Shown piece after piece: positions 26,678-33,111 of a stretch of DNA of 42,569 bases (position 1 is the first letter of the stretch; every line of letters starts with the position of its first letter). The notes under the pieces were generated by a model. It saw nothing but the letters and a program-made list of their open reading frames with translations. It was not told the origin of the DNA and made no database searches. The position numbers were made by a program, and so were the translations under genes. Origin of the DNA: Actinomycetes bacterium (GTDB lineage: Bacteria > Actinomycetota > Acidimicrobiia > Acidimicrobiales > Bog-793); contig JAJZLV010000019.1 in assembly GCA_021803215.1 (NCBI GenBank), positions 20,405-62,973 of the forward strand. The letters are read 5' to 3'.

Positions 26678-27757
26678 TCAGCGTCGGGCACCGGGTCGGC
26701 GGCGCCCTCTCCGGCCGGCCAGAGCCCCGGGCGAGGAGGCGAACGGGTCCCAGGCCGGCGGCGCCGTCGCCAGGTAGCGGTGCACCCTTTCGGCGATGAC
26801 CTCCGGCGCCAGCTCGCTGCAACCCTCGCCGCTTGGCCGAAGGCGGGCCACGATCGCAGCCGAGCCGTTTGCCGCCCAGGTGACGCCGCCCGGCTCCAGA
26901 CCGCTCAGCTCGAGCGCGAGCGGGCCGAGCTCCGGGCGAAGCGGCATTCGCCGGCTCACGTAGCGGACCCAGCTCTCGTATCGCAGGTAGAGCTCGCAGC
27001 GGGGACCGTCGAAACAAAGGATGCGGCCGCACGAGGTCGCCGAGTGGACCGCGGCCGCGTGGATCGGAAGGGCCCCGGCGGCCCCGGGCAGCCGGGCGGG
27101 CGACCCGCCCGCCCGGCTCACCACGGCCAGGTCGTCTGCCTGCTCGGAGAGCTCGACGGCGCCCCGGCCCAGGGCTGCCCGGCCCTCTTCGAGCAGGCCC
27201 ATCTCAGCGCCCCAGAGCGCCTCGTAGTCCTCCGGCCGGCTGAGCAGCTCCTCCACCCTGGGCAAGAGGGCCAGGTAGCGCTCCGAGGTGGAGGCCCCGC
27301 TGCCCGCTTCGAGCTCGGCCAGCGGAGCTACCGCAAAGGAGACGGCGGCGGCCCGCTTGGAGGAGACCACGCCGAAGTCGCCACAAGAGGCCACCTCGAG
27401 CACCAGGTCGGCCCGCCGGAGAGCGATCTCGGGCTCCATCATCGCGAAGACAGCCATGAGGCCGTCCTCGTCGAAGTGGTCGTTCGTGACCGCCTCGGCC
27501 TCACTGGCTCGCGCGAGGGCCTCCGCGACCGCCGCCCGCTCCGGCCGGCCGGCGCTCGTGAGGCCGAGCCGGTGGCGCCAGAACCGGAGCACGATCCCGA
27601 CAGAGAGGTCGTGGGCGAGCACGAGGGGGCTCGGGGCATGGGGCCAGTGTGAGAGCGTGAGGACGCTCGAGCGCCGGGCGGCCCCGTCCACCATCACATG
27701 GGGGCGGTCCTCGAGCTGCTCGAAGGGGCTGTAGCCGAAGCGGTGCGGCGCTGGCAC
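26678..27757 (-). CDS. uncharacterised protein, DUF6687-like
   Basis: A 359-residue soluble protein that I do not assign a function. Near the N-terminus it reads YSPFEQLEDRPHVMVDGAARRSSVLTLSHWPHAPSPL, and at about residues 90-100 TNDHFDEDGLMAVFAMMEP, an acidic-histidine cluster that could bind a metal. This matches my memory of the actinobacterial family DUF6687, unchecked. The last 20 residues are a basic Arg/Gly/Ala tail. The GTG at 27757 starts one base after the acyl-CoA dehydrogenase stop and follows GGAGGGCTGAG, so the two genes are co-transcribed and coupled. Confidence 0.7.
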   Translation of the reverse strand: MPAPHRFGYSPFEQLEDRPHVMVDGAARRSSVLTLSHWPHAPSPLVLAHDLSVGIVLRFWRHRLGLTSAGRPERAAVAEALARASEAEAVTNDHFDEDGLMAVFAMMEPEIALRRADLVLEVASCGDFGVVSSKRAAAVSFAVAPLAELEAGSGASTSERYLALLPRVEELLSRPEDYEALWGAEMGLLEEGRAALGRGAVELSEQADDLAVVSRAGGSPARLPGAAGALPIHAAAVHSATSCGRILCFDGPRCELYLRYESWVRYVSRRMPLRPELGPLALELSGLEPGGVTWAANGSAAIVARLRPSGEGCSELAPEVIAERVHRYLATAPPAWDPFASSPGALAGRRGRRRPGARR

Positions 27758-27758
27758 C

Positions 27759-29057
27759 TCAGCCCTCCAGCGCCGCCTCGTCGAGGAGCTTGGCGAAGCG
27801 GGCCAGGGCCTCTCGGCGCCGGGTCGGGACGTGCTCGCTCGGCACCTCGGTCCTCTCGTATCCCTTCAGCACCTGGCGGGCCACCGTCACCTTGTGCACC
27901 TCGTCCGGGCCGTCGTAGATGCGGGCCGCCCGGGCGGCCCGGTACATGTGCTCGAGCGGGAGGTCGGTCGAGAAGCCGAGGCTGCCGTGGACCTGGATGG
28001 CCCTGTCGATGACGTCGTGCAGCACCTTGGCGCCGTGGAACTTGATCAGGGCGATCTCGGTCCGGGCGGCCGCCGGACCCTTCTCGTCCATCTTCCAGGC
28101 GGCGTAAAGGGTCATGAGGCGGGCGGCCGTCATCTCGGCGAGCGACTCGGCCACCCAGTTCTGGACGGTCTGCTTCTCGGAGAGGTAAGAGCCGTGGGCA
28201 TACCGGCTGACGGCCCGCTCGCACATCATGTCGAAGGCCCGCTTCGACTGGCCGAGCCATCGCATGCAGTGGTGTATCCGCCCCGGCCCGAGCCGCAGCT
28301 GGGCGAGGCGGAAGCCGTCGCCCTCTCGTCCGATGAGGTTCCCCAAGGGGACTCGCACGTCCCGGTAGAGGATCTCGGAGTGGGCTCCGAACTTGCCGAA
28401 GTGCTCGGTCGGATCCTCCATCGTGGCGACGTCGCGGACTATCTCGACCCCGGGCGTGTCGGCCGGCACGACGATCATCGAACAGCCCTGGTAGGGGTGG
28501 ACGTCCGGATTGGTCACCACCATGACCAAGAGGATGTCGGCCACCGAGCCGTTCGAGGTGAACCACTTGTGGCCGTTTATGACCCACTCCTCGCCGTCTC
28601 GGACGGCCCTGGTCGCTATGAGGGTCGGGTCGGCTCCGGCTCCCGGCTCTGTCATCGAGAAGCCGGAGCGGAGCTCGCCGGCGAGGAGCGGATCGAGCCA
28701 CCTCTCTTTGTGCTCCGTGCGGCCGGAGGCCTCGATCCCGAGGGCGAGCAGCTCGGCGTTGCCCGAGTCGGGCGCGTTGTTCCCGAACACCACCGGGCCA
28801 TAGGCGCTCTGGCCTATGACCTCGTGCAAGAGCCCGAGCTTCACCTGGCCGAAGCCGCCGCCGCCGAGCTCGGGCGGCAGGTGGGCGGCCCAGAGCCCCT
28901 CCCGCTTCACCGCAGCCTGCAAGGGGGCGAGCGCCCTTTTCAGCTGCTCGGTCGAGAGCTCGATGGTCTCGAGCGGGAAGACCTCCTCTGCCATGAGGCG
29001 GCGCGCCCACTCGAGCTTCGCCTCGTACTCCGGCTCGGTAGAAAAGTCCCAACCCAT
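27759..29057 (-). CDS. acyl-CoA dehydrogenase
   Basis: A 432-residue FAD-dependent acyl-CoA dehydrogenase of the longer ACAD10/11-like type. Signatures are GFSMTEPGAGADPTLIATRA (flavin and substrate loop), NGHKWFTSNG, IQVHGSLGFSTDLPLEHMYRAARAARIYDGPDEVHK (C-terminal flavin-contact region), with the catalytic Glu/Asp region in between. It introduces a trans-2 double bond into an acyl-CoA and passes electrons to electron-transfer flavoprotein. The ATG at 29057 follows GAGGAG. It is followed within one base by the DUF6687-like gene; chain-length preference is unknown. Confidence 0.92.
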   Translation of the reverse strand: MGWDFSTEPEYEAKLEWARRLMAEEVFPLETIELSTEQLKRALAPLQAAVKREGLWAAHLPPELGGGGFGQVKLGLLHEVIGQSAYGPVVFGNNAPDSGNAELLALGIEASGRTEHKERWLDPLLAGELRSGFSMTEPGAGADPTLIATRAVRDGEEWVINGHKWFTSNGSVADILLVMVVTNPDVHPYQGCSMIVVPADTPGVEIVRDVATMEDPTEHFGKFGAHSEILYRDVRVPLGNLIGREGDGFRLAQLRLGPGRIHHCMRWLGQSKRAFDMMCERAVSRYAHGSYLSEKQTVQNWVAESLAEMTAARLMTLYAAWKMDEKGPAAARTEIALIKFHGAKVLHDVIDRAIQVHGSLGFSTDLPLEHMYRAARAARIYDGPDEVHKVTVARQVLKGYERTEVPSEHVPTRRREALARFAKLLDEAALEG

Positions 29058-29158: not shown

Positions 29159-29662
29159 ATGGTCCCCGTGGACCTGATCGGAGTCGTAGACACGATGTTC
29201 GCCCGCGTCGACATGGGTGCCTACGCGATAGACGAGCTCGAGTCCTGTCCTGGGTACGGCGAGAAGTTCGCGGTCGTGCACCGCACCGTGCCCGGCTTCA
29301 AGGATCTCGCCGTCTGCTGCAAGCGGCTCGTCGAGGACGAGGGCGTGAAGATCCTCGTCGCCCTCGGCATGCCGGGAAGGGCCGCCATCGACCAGGTCTG
29401 CGCCCACGAGGCCTCGCAGGGGATCATGCTCGCCCAGCTGCTCACCTCGACGCCGATCCTCGAGGTCTTCGTGCACGAGAGCGAAGAGGAGGATCCGGCC
29501 GCTCTCGTGCCTGTCTGCGAGAACCGGGCTCGCAAGCATGCCCGCAACGCCTACTGGATGCTCTACGAGCCAGAGCAGCTGACAAGGAGGGCGGGCCAGG
29601 GCGTGCGGCAGGGCTACGCCGACGCCGGCCCGATCACTCCGCCCGGCCCAGGCAGCTCCTGA
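29159..29662 (+). CDS. ribC: archaeal-type riboflavin synthase
   Basis: A 167-residue protein matching the archaeal riboflavin synthase family, related to lumazine synthase and unrelated to the two-domain bacterial RibE. Diagnostic segments are IGVVDTMFARVDMGAYAID (7-25), HRTVPGFKDLAVCCKRL (41-57), VALGMPGRAAIDQVCAHEAS (67-86), LEVFVHE (101-107) and a C-terminal RRAGQGVRQGYADAGP. The family converts two 6,7-dimethyl-8-ribityllumazine to riboflavin plus a pyrimidine. ATG at 29159 is used; GTG at 29168 has better AGGA spacing. No other riboflavin genes adjoin, and I see no FMN riboswitch upstream. Confidence 0.85.
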   Translation: MVPVDLIGVVDTMFARVDMGAYAIDELESCPGYGEKFAVVHRTVPGFKDLAVCCKRLVEDEGVKILVALGMPGRAAIDQVCAHEASQGIMLAQLLTSTPILEVFVHESEEEDPAALVPVCENRARKHARNAYWMLYEPEQLTRRAGQGVRQGYADAGPITPPGPGSS

Positions 29663-29920: not shown

Positions 29921-30760
29921 TCACGAGCCGGCTCTGCTCGGCGGCGCCGGGCGGCGGTCTAGGCCGGCGACCCAGTCGAGGTCGATCAGCAAGGGGGCAT
30001 GGTCAGAAGGGGGCCGCTCACCGCCCATTCCCTTGCGGGCTTCCCGGTCGATGAGGCCATAGGAGACCCGCTCGGCGAGCGGGCGGGAGACGAGGACATG
30101 GTCGATGCGCATGCCCCGGTGCTTGTGGAAGTCACCTGCCCGGTAGTCCCACCACGTGAAGAGCTGGTCGGTCTCGGGGTAGACGAGCCGGAAGGCGTCC
30201 GAGAGCCCCCACTCGATGAAGCGGTTGAAGGCCGCCCGCTCGGCCGGCGTGACGTGGGTGGCGCCGGCGAAGGACTTCGGGTCGAAGAGGTCCCGGTCCT
30301 CGGGGGCGATGTTGTAGTCCCCGCAGATGGCTATCGGATCCTCCGGCGAGCACTGCTCGGCCAGGTCGCGCCGGAGCCGCTCCAGCCAGGCCAGCTTGGC
30401 CTCGTAGTGCTCGCTGCCGACAAGGCGGCCGTTCGGGACGTAGACGCTCGCGACCAACACTCCGCCGCAGCGGGCCGAGAGGATGCGGCACTGCTCGATC
30501 TCGGCCGGCTCCTCGCCGACGAAGCCGGGCCGGGGCTCTTCGAGGCCGACCCGCGAGGCGATGGCCACTCCGTTCCAGCGGCCGTTTCCGTGGAAGGCCA
30601 CCTCGTAGCCGAGGGCGTTGAAGGCCATGACGGGAAAGGCCGCGTCGGCCAGCTTCGTCTCTTGCATGCACAAGACGTCCGGGGCGGCGTACCCGAGCCA
30701 CTCCTCCACCTTCGGGAGCCGGGCCTTCAGCGAGTTGACGTTCCAAGTGGCGATGCGCAC
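29921..30760 (-). CDS. xth: exodeoxyribonuclease III (AP endonuclease)
   Basis: A 279-residue endonuclease/exonuclease/phosphatase-family enzyme. Motifs are MRIATWNVNSLKARL at the start, DVLCMQETKL (metal-binding Glu), ASVYVPNG, ICGDYNIAPEDRDL (Asp/Asn pair), QLFTWWDYR, MRIDHVLVS and a final PPSDHAPLLIDLD (catalytic Asp-His). It cleaves at abasic sites and trims 3' ends in base-excision repair. GTG at 30760 is chosen because GGGGAAGG lies eight bases upstream; a TTG at 30778 would add six residues without a ribosome site. Confidence 0.93.
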   Translation of the reverse strand: MRIATWNVNSLKARLPKVEEWLGYAAPDVLCMQETKLADAAFPVMAFNALGYEVAFHGNGRWNGVAIASRVGLEEPRPGFVGEEPAEIEQCRILSARCGGVLVASVYVPNGRLVGSEHYEAKLAWLERLRRDLAEQCSPEDPIAICGDYNIAPEDRDLFDPKSFAGATHVTPAERAAFNRFIEWGLSDAFRLVYPETDQLFTWWDYRAGDFHKHRGMRIDHVLVSRPLAERVSYGLIDREARKGMGGERPPSDHAPLLIDLDWVAGLDRRPAPPSRAGS

Positions 30761-30799
30761 CTCGGAAGCCTTCCCCAACCGAGGGCGGCCCGCCAGCTC

Positions 30800-32470
30800 T
30801 CAGCCCGAGGCGACGTACTTGTCGAGGATGCTGATGGTCATCCCGCCGCTCGCGGTGCCGTAGACCTCCTCGGCGGCCGACGGGTCGAACTGCAGGCTGA
30901 AGGTGTTGGTGCCTATGACACCGCCGCAGGCCTGGATCTGGCCTGTCATCACCGAGTCGTTGGCGTAGGAGATCTCCCCCATCGAGTACAGCAGCACGTC
31001 GACGTTCGGATAGAAGTCGGTGGCGTTGCTGAAGCTCATGTCCACCGTCGAGGTCGAGCAGGTGTAGGTGGCGGGCGGGCTGGGCGGCGGCCCGTTCGCC
31101 TCGATGACCAGGTTCGGACCGGGCGAGCCGGCGGTCGAACAGATGCCGGAGTTCTCCGCCGTCGCCTCGCAGAAGGTGTTCGAGTTGGAGAAGGCGATCG
31201 TGCCCACGTCCAAGATGGTGTCGCCGCCGCTCGGGTTGAGCGCGAAGACCTGGGCGTTCTTGTAGGAGAGGTTGCAGCTCGGTGCCTCGTAGACCGTCTT
31301 GGTGCTCTGGGTCTCGAGCGCCGCCTGGAACGGGTCCGGGTAGGCGACGCTCGGTCCGCTCCCGGCCTCGTTCGAGATGCTCGCGAAGTACTGGGCGCAG
31401 GTGTAGCTGGCGTTCGGGATCTGAACGACGTTCCAGCCGGAGCTCGGAAGGGTGAGGTCGGGGAAGGTGCTGGCAGGCGGCATCGTCTCGGAGCTGAGCG
31501 AGGAGTCGTTCGGATAGGAGGTGCCGGAGATCACCCCGCCGCCCGAGACGGCGATGCTGCCGGAGGCATAGGCGTCGCCGCCGATCGTCCCGTCTGGCAC
31601 CTCGATGCTCCCGTTCGTCTCGGTGGCGTTGCCTGCGATGCTCGCCGTGCCGCTCAGGCAGATGGCGTAGTAGGTGAGGACTCCGCCCGAGCGCGAGGAG
31701 CCGCAGGAGGTCGAGGCGGTGTCGCCGCCGTAGGAGACGACGTTTCCCTTGATCGTGGCGCTGTTCTGCAGCTCGACGTAGCCGGCGCTCGTCACGTTGC
31801 CGTCGAAGGTGCAGCTGCCGCTGAAGTCGACCGGCTGGTAGGTGGTGACGCTCCCCATGCTCGAGGTCCCGTTCTGGCAGGTGACCTGCTGGCCGGCGTA
31901 GACATCGGGCGCCGCCGTCCCGGTTGTGAGACTGGCGGCGTTGTCGAGCACGATGTTGTTGGCTGTGTAGATGGCGTAGCCGACCTCGGCCTTGGTCGCC
32001 GCGCTGACGGCGATCTCGACGTCCTCTTTCATCGTGACGGTGGTCCCGCCCGGCGCCTTTCCGACCGAGGTGAGGGTGGCGTTCGTCGGCGGCGTGCTTC
32101 CTCCGAGGGTGCTCCCGGCGCCTTGGCAGGTGAGCGGGGTGCCGTTGGAGGAGTAGGCGATCGTCGTCGAGTAGGTGGAACCGGCGCCGGGCACCGCGAG
32201 CGAGCCGCCCGCCGAGCAGGGGAAGCTGCCGTAGGAGCTGACTGCTTCCATGGCCGCCAGCTCGCTGGCGAGGCCGGTCTGAGCCGCCATCTCGCTTTGA
32301 GAGTCGGTCTTGAACATCGTCGTGAACTGGAGCCCGCTCGTGGTGACGGCCATCGCCACACCGAGCGTGGCGATGAGCAGGACCGAGATGACGAGGACGA
32401 GGACGAGCACACCGCCCTCGTCGCTCGGCTGCTTCGCCTTCCAGGCGGTCGGCGCGGAGAGCCGGCCCAT
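30800..32470 (-). CDS. PilX-like membrane-anchored protein with long beta-rich surface domain
   Basis: A 556-residue protein with one N-terminal membrane helix (about residues 20-45, GGVLVLVLVISVLLIATLGVAMAV), short basic/hydrophilic N-terminus and a long Ser/Thr/Gly/Asn-rich exterior. The exterior contains many short V/I-x-G/S-N repeats such as NVTSAGYVELQNSATIKGNVVSYG and SIAVSGGGVISG, resembling a parallel beta-helix or polymer-forming fold, and about ten cysteines. The ATG at 32470 shares one base with the upstream stop (TGATG). It is third in a leftward cassette with two prepilin-like genes and is likely a minor pilin-like or surface adhesive component. No precise family is recognised. 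Confidence 0.7.
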   Translation of the reverse strand: MGRLSAPTAWKAKQPSDEGGVLVLVLVISVLLIATLGVAMAVTTSGLQFTTMFKTDSQSEMAAQTGLASELAAMEAVSSYGSFPCSAGGSLAVPGAGSTYSTTIAYSSNGTPLTCQGAGSTLGGSTPPTNATLTSVGKAPGGTTVTMKEDVEIAVSAATKAEVGYAIYTANNIVLDNAASLTTGTAAPDVYAGQQVTCQNGTSSMGSVTTYQPVDFSGSCTFDGNVTSAGYVELQNSATIKGNVVSYGGDTASTSCGSSRSGGVLTYYAICLSGTASIAGNATETNGSIEVPDGTIGGDAYASGSIAVSGGGVISGTSYPNDSSLSSETMPPASTFPDLTLPSSGWNVVQIPNASYTCAQYFASISNEAGSGPSVAYPDPFQAALETQSTKTVYEAPSCNLSYKNAQVFALNPSGGDTILDVGTIAFSNSNTFCEATAENSGICSTAGSPGPNLVIEANGPPPSPPATYTCSTSTVDMSFSNATDFYPNVDVLLYSMGEISYANDSVMTGQIQACGGVIGTNTFSLQFDPSAAEEVYGTASGGMTISILDKYVASG

Positions 32471-33111
32471 CAGCTCGTCGGCGTCGTCGTCGAGGCGGCG
32501 CACTCGGTCGGAAGCGCCGGTGAGTACGGGGTGGAGAAGGCCGATATGGCCGACTTGATCTCGAGGGTCTGGGTGAGGCGGCCGGGTCGCTCGCTCACCT
32601 GCAGGTCGACGACGACCTCCTGGGGCGAGCCCGGCGCCGCCGTCGGCTCTTGGAAGGGCGGGATCGTCGTGTTGTAGATGGTGCGAGCGACCGTCTCCCA
32701 GCCGTTTCCCGCCCCGCCCGGGGTGAAGCTCTCCTCCTGCATGACCCCGCTCGCCGGATCGACCACCCACTGCTCCCACTGCGGGACGCCCGAGGCCTCC
32801 ACCTGCTCGATGCGAAGGGCCCAGCCGCTCGTGGCCGTCTGGGCCGTCGTCACCTGGGTGGGAAGGCAGACCTGGCTGGCAGAGGCGACCTGGCGGTCGA
32901 GGTTCTGGATGGCGAGGTCGGCCTGCTCGGAGCCGATCGCGGTGCCCTGGGCCGAGGTGCTCGCCGTCGTGACGGTCTGGAAGAGCGAGGGGACGACCGA
33001 CATGATGAGGGCGCTCAGCGCCAGGGCCACGATGAGCTCGACGAGCGAGTAGCCGCGGTCCTCCCTCCGCCGCACGAGCCGGCCCCTTGTCCGGCGCAGG
33101 AACGAGCTCAT
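32470..33111 (-). CDS. type IV prepilin-like protein, PilW/PulJ-type
   Basis: A 213-residue protein with a class III signal peptide. The N-terminus is basic (FLRRTRGRLVRRREDRG), the prepilin peptidase site is G20-Y21, and the mature helix YSLVELIVALALSALIMSVVPS carries Glu at position 5. The rest is a pseudopilin-like globular domain. It would be cleaved and N-methylated, then incorporated in a type IV pilus or secretion pseudopilus. The ATG overlaps the upstream stop by 4 bp. The cleaving peptidase and assembly ATPase are not in this window. Confidence 0.85.
   Translation of the reverse strand: MSSFLRRTRGRLVRRREDRGYSLVELIVALALSALIMSVVPSLFQTVTTASTSAQGTAIGSEQADLAIQNLDRQVASASQVCLPTQVTTAQTATSGWALRIEQVEASGVPQWEQWVVDPASGVMQEESFTPGGAGNGWETVARTIYNTTIPPFQEPTAAPGSPQEVVVDLQVSERPGRLTQTLEIKSAISAFSTPYSPALPTECAASTTTPTS

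Follow-up and report, generated by a model that had tools for sequence, protein, structure and literature searches.

Riboflavin synthase is essential to the production of vitamin B2 and has been discussed as an antibacterial target. The trimeric bacterial enzyme, RibE (TIGR00187), and the archaeal type belong to unrelated families, the latter sharing its superfamily with the lumazine synthase RibH (TIGR00114), and the archaeal enzyme of solved structure that bears on the gene considered here is that of M. jannaschii (PDB 2b98/2b99).

Archaeal-type riboflavin synthases are already known from actinobacteria. In roseoflavin-producing Streptomyces, RibE2 is encoded in the rosB cluster together with rosB, ribX and ribY, as a riboflavin synthase additional to a separate RibE, and it has been attributed to horizontal transfer (PMC11039241). 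The same arrangement is found on a plasmid of S. camelliae, whose copy lies within a roseoflavin cluster, is 63% identical to the protein described here and was the only relative in the plasmid collection; the viral and phage collections held none.

The present gene, from a genome of the Acidimicrobiales, encodes the same type of protein as RibE2 but has neither such neighbours nor a RibE for company. Whereas RibE2 is an additional enzyme within an antibiotic cluster, this one lies outside any such cluster and is very probably the sole riboflavin synthase of its organism, ribE having apparently been lost through non-orthologous gene displacement. It differs from its archaeal counterparts in its bacterial host, where it occurs alongside a bacterial set of RibD, RibBA and RibH. 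The literature searched, largely outside the subscription journals, contained no account of an archaeal-type riboflavin synthase in Acidimicrobiales, nor of its serving as the only such enzyme there.

The gene, its product and its neighbours

The open reading frame at 29159–29662 on the forward strand of the window (the whole stretch of 42,569 nucleotides that was analysed) encodes 167 residues and contains all the protein segments from which a sequence-only reading had recognised an archaeal-type riboflavin synthase. At the level of sequence this identity is confirmed. The product matches the profile TIGR01506 (ribC_arch) with 180.3 bits (E 2e-53), the curated NCBIfam equivalog cut-off being 100.55 bits, and the alignment is full-length, pairing residues 7–159 with positions 2–151 of the 151 in the profile. 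Solved structures matched at E 0.001 comprised only the M. jannaschii enzyme (2b98, E 1e-50), to which the product is 55% identical, and constructs derived from it. The residues that are invariant in riboflavin synthases of this type are retained (D11, T12, K48, D49, M71, D78, C81, H83, E102, F104, H127 and N130), as is the C-terminal AGxGxRQGxxxxGP motif, which has no counterpart in RibH.

The Pfam assignment is to DMRL_synthase (PF00885, 47 bits), a superfamily common to riboflavin synthase and RibH, and would also suit a divergent second lumazine synthase, or another enzyme of the same fold, in a genome whose RibE was missed through assembly gaps. However, the lumazine synthase model TIGR00114 gives the product 25.1 bits, far under its cut-off of 84.6, and residues that are invariant in riboflavin synthases yet different in RibH are kept in the alignment. 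The genome separately encodes a true RibH with a full score, and the archaeal-type gene never occurs together with RibE in a sample of 198 genomes, so that a second lumazine synthase is extremely unlikely. The earlier reading had named two outcomes that would count against it, a grouping with lumazine synthases and homologues already assigned to another reaction; neither was found, and the only annotated bacterial homologue, that of the roseoflavin cluster, is called ‘riboflavin synthase’.

Homologues open with ‘M/V-D-x-I-G-V-V-D’, three codons downstream of the ATG at 29159, and because they begin there, the GTG at 29168 is the likelier start; the true product is thus probably 164 residues long. 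Membership of the family predicts catalytic activity as a riboflavin synthase, and a pentameric assembly is expected on the same grounds. The enzyme would convert two molecules of 6,7-dimethyl-8-ribityllumazine to riboflavin and a pyrimidine, the same reaction and place in the pathway as expected of the unrelated RibE.

The gene stands alone, as first described, outside any riboflavin operon. Its divergent neighbour is an acyl-CoA dehydrogenase gene (27759–29057, reverse strand; PF00441, PF02770 and PF02771), and its convergent neighbour is an Exonuclease III-like gene of the Exo_endo_phos family (29921–30778, reverse strand; PF03372), which is retained in near relatives and is not thought to be functionally linked to the synthase. 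A copy of the acyl-CoA dehydrogenase, 65–92% identical, lies directly upstream of the synthase in genomes of families f1, f23 and f45. A functional link with this flavoprotein was considered but is less likely than shared inheritance of gene order, the adjacency being seen in three families and absent from many. At none of the 122 homologous loci (flanks of 1.5 to 5 kb per side) is the synthase gene accompanied by ribD, ribBA or ribH. The reported lack of an FMN riboswitch also held, with no Rfam match either in the window or in the 20 kb around the ribD-ribBA-ribH cluster found elsewhere in the genome.

Other genes in the region are conserved to differing extents. A DUF6687 protein (26678–27757) lies beside PspAB and an M48 peptidase, a group that is kept near the synthase gene in close relatives. 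An open reading frame of 659 residues (30800–32779) has no Pfam match and is kept within the genus; its N-terminal hydrophobic stretch resembles those of pilus-associated PilX-like proteins.

The riboflavin pathway in the host genome

The host genome is a draft of 2.64 Mb in 148 contigs, 95.5% complete, with a listed contamination of 0.06%. The remaining riboflavin genes lie on another contig (C48) in the order rpe, a moaB-like gene, ribD, ribBA, ribH and hisG. The stop codon of ribD and the start of ribBA are separated by 13 bases, and ribE is absent between them. No match to either TIGR00187 or Lum_binding, models that both score in 11 of 14 control genomes, was obtained anywhere in the 95.5% complete genome. 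Because the genome is a draft, the absence of RibE rests on these models together with the agreement of relatives.

In the pathway proposed, the ordinary bacterial ribD-ribBA-ribH cluster, itself seen in the sequence, would supply the upstream steps. Phosphorylation of the product would fall to a riboflavin kinase and its adenylation to a FAD synthetase, two proteins whose genes are both present: the FAD synthetase is encoded on C48 (L041:3163-4110), and a kinase domain is not detectable in its C-terminal part, whereas the riboflavin kinase, a stand-alone protein of 135 residues, is encoded on contig C100 (L261:1707-2114). The usual bifunctional RibF is therefore split, in this genome, into two proteins encoded on separate contigs.

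In a metagenome-assembled genome the synthase gene might sit on an archaeal or otherwise foreign contig that was binned by accident, and its nearest relatives are indeed all from metagenome-assembled genomes, with the exception of Aciditerrimonas ferrireducens. Against this, a 94% identical copy occurs with unchanged gene order in a genome of the same genus (G212), which rules out an accident of binning, and other family members have the gene too. The isolate record of A. ferrireducens MV1 carries it at 78%, and the listed contamination is low. For practical purposes the isolate and the conserved synteny dispose of a binning error, and we give it next to no credence. The nearest named records are otherwise Acidimicrobiales and Acidimicrobiaceae metagenome-assembled genomes, in agreement with the actinobacterial host proposed at the outset; the best 80 contig matches for the synthase are nearly all Acidimicrobiales-like.

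Distribution and history in the Acidimicrobiales

Archaeal-type synthases, counted when above the TIGR01506 cut-off, occur in 29 of the 198 genomes sampled from the order and RibE in 126, a count that leaves out one genome (G103) with a match at E 7e-4; none has both and 43 have neither. The mutual exclusion is significant by Fisher's test (p 2e-15, shared ancestry being ignored). A true RibH above its cut-off was present in all 39 archaeal-type genomes tested. The archaeal type without RibE spans about ten families, and in a sample of 396 genomes from the phylum it is restricted to the order Acidimicrobiales.

Among the 43 genomes with neither synthase, 38 also lack ribH and, having neither riboflavin synthase nor lumazine synthase, seem to have lost the pathway. 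These predicted riboflavin auxotrophs (38 of 198; for example G006, G051, G176 and G158) include single-contig genomes such as G006, which is 99% complete. The remaining five are draft genomes, and in two of them ribH lies near a contig end. One genome, G193, belongs to an archaeal-type genus and has ribH, with neither type of synthase found.

Gene order follows the type of synthase. RibE-type relatives have ribD-ribE-ribBA-ribH, in one case (G032) also with moaB before and hisG after, and archaeal-type genomes have ribD-ribBA-ribH-hisG, with no ribE in the position it normally occupies. At some point in the evolution of the order the archaeal-type enzyme would already have been in place when ribE dropped out of the operon, an order of events that we infer. 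Two family members depart from the RibE arrangement: at loci L208 (G198:C74) and L246 (G205:C113), the 2 to 3 kb or so flanking ribE on each side contain neither ribD, ribBA nor ribH.

A special-purpose or backup enzyme beside a normal RibE, for which RibE2 is the precedent, would be at home in genomes that carry both types, and two family-level relatives (G217 and G223) seem to do so. Each of these has ribH twice, once in a cluster with ribE and once in a cluster lacking it, and their ribE-cluster contigs (L258, G217:C321, and L256, G223:C8) are 99.4% identical over 4.9 kb although the genomes are assigned to two genera. This suggests contaminating contigs common to both, which is the simplest reading; a recent transfer could also account for them. 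RibE was found neither in the host genome nor among the 29 archaeal-type genomes sampled from the order, and no ros-like neighbours lie near the gene within the window. A backup role is accordingly very unlikely. Of the two possibilities first offered, replacement of RibE or an acquired backup, it is the former that has stood: replacement is most likely because the genome lacks RibE, the otherwise present pathway is encoded by an operon without ribE, and the two types exclude each other among relatives.

There is good support for the archaeal type having taken over from RibE, as the only riboflavin synthase, in part of the order, across about ten families. In an rpoB phylogeny built from 30 genomes, the type switches about four times, at least three of these switches being forced, and family f1 forms a single clade of mixed type (support 98/94). 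The ribBA tree divides f1 by synthase type, and rows from RibE operons cluster together (98/96) apart from archaeal-type rows, with the exception of the long-branched G032; the ribE operons of f1 also lack the hisG neighbour. These patterns only suggest a return to RibE in some f1 lineages, through uptake of a ribD-ribE-ribBA-ribH operon in its entirety. Tested on ribBA, such an exchange was not significant, a single f1 clade not being rejected by the AU test (p 0.24). The combined history, of displacement across the families followed by a return of some f1 lineages, is offered tentatively, with the balance slightly against it. The tree of the synthase itself (157 columns) is poorly resolved and fixes neither the position of the Streptomyces sequences nor the number of gains; the ultimate donor may have been an archaeon, a group represented in the comparison by a single sequence.

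Significance of the probable displacement

Displacement of RibE by the archaeal-type enzyme would make these bacteria a natural instance of a core-pathway enzyme being exchanged outright for an unrelated one, with a riboflavin synthase derived from lumazine synthase acting alone; both the intact and the ribE-less versions of the operon exist in close relatives. The lumazine synthase cage of some bacteria encloses the trimeric RibE (PMC13376624), which raises the question of what becomes of the cage when riboflavin synthase is a pentamer. For genome annotation the finding carries a warning, in that the absence of RibE from these organisms does not imply riboflavin auxotrophy.
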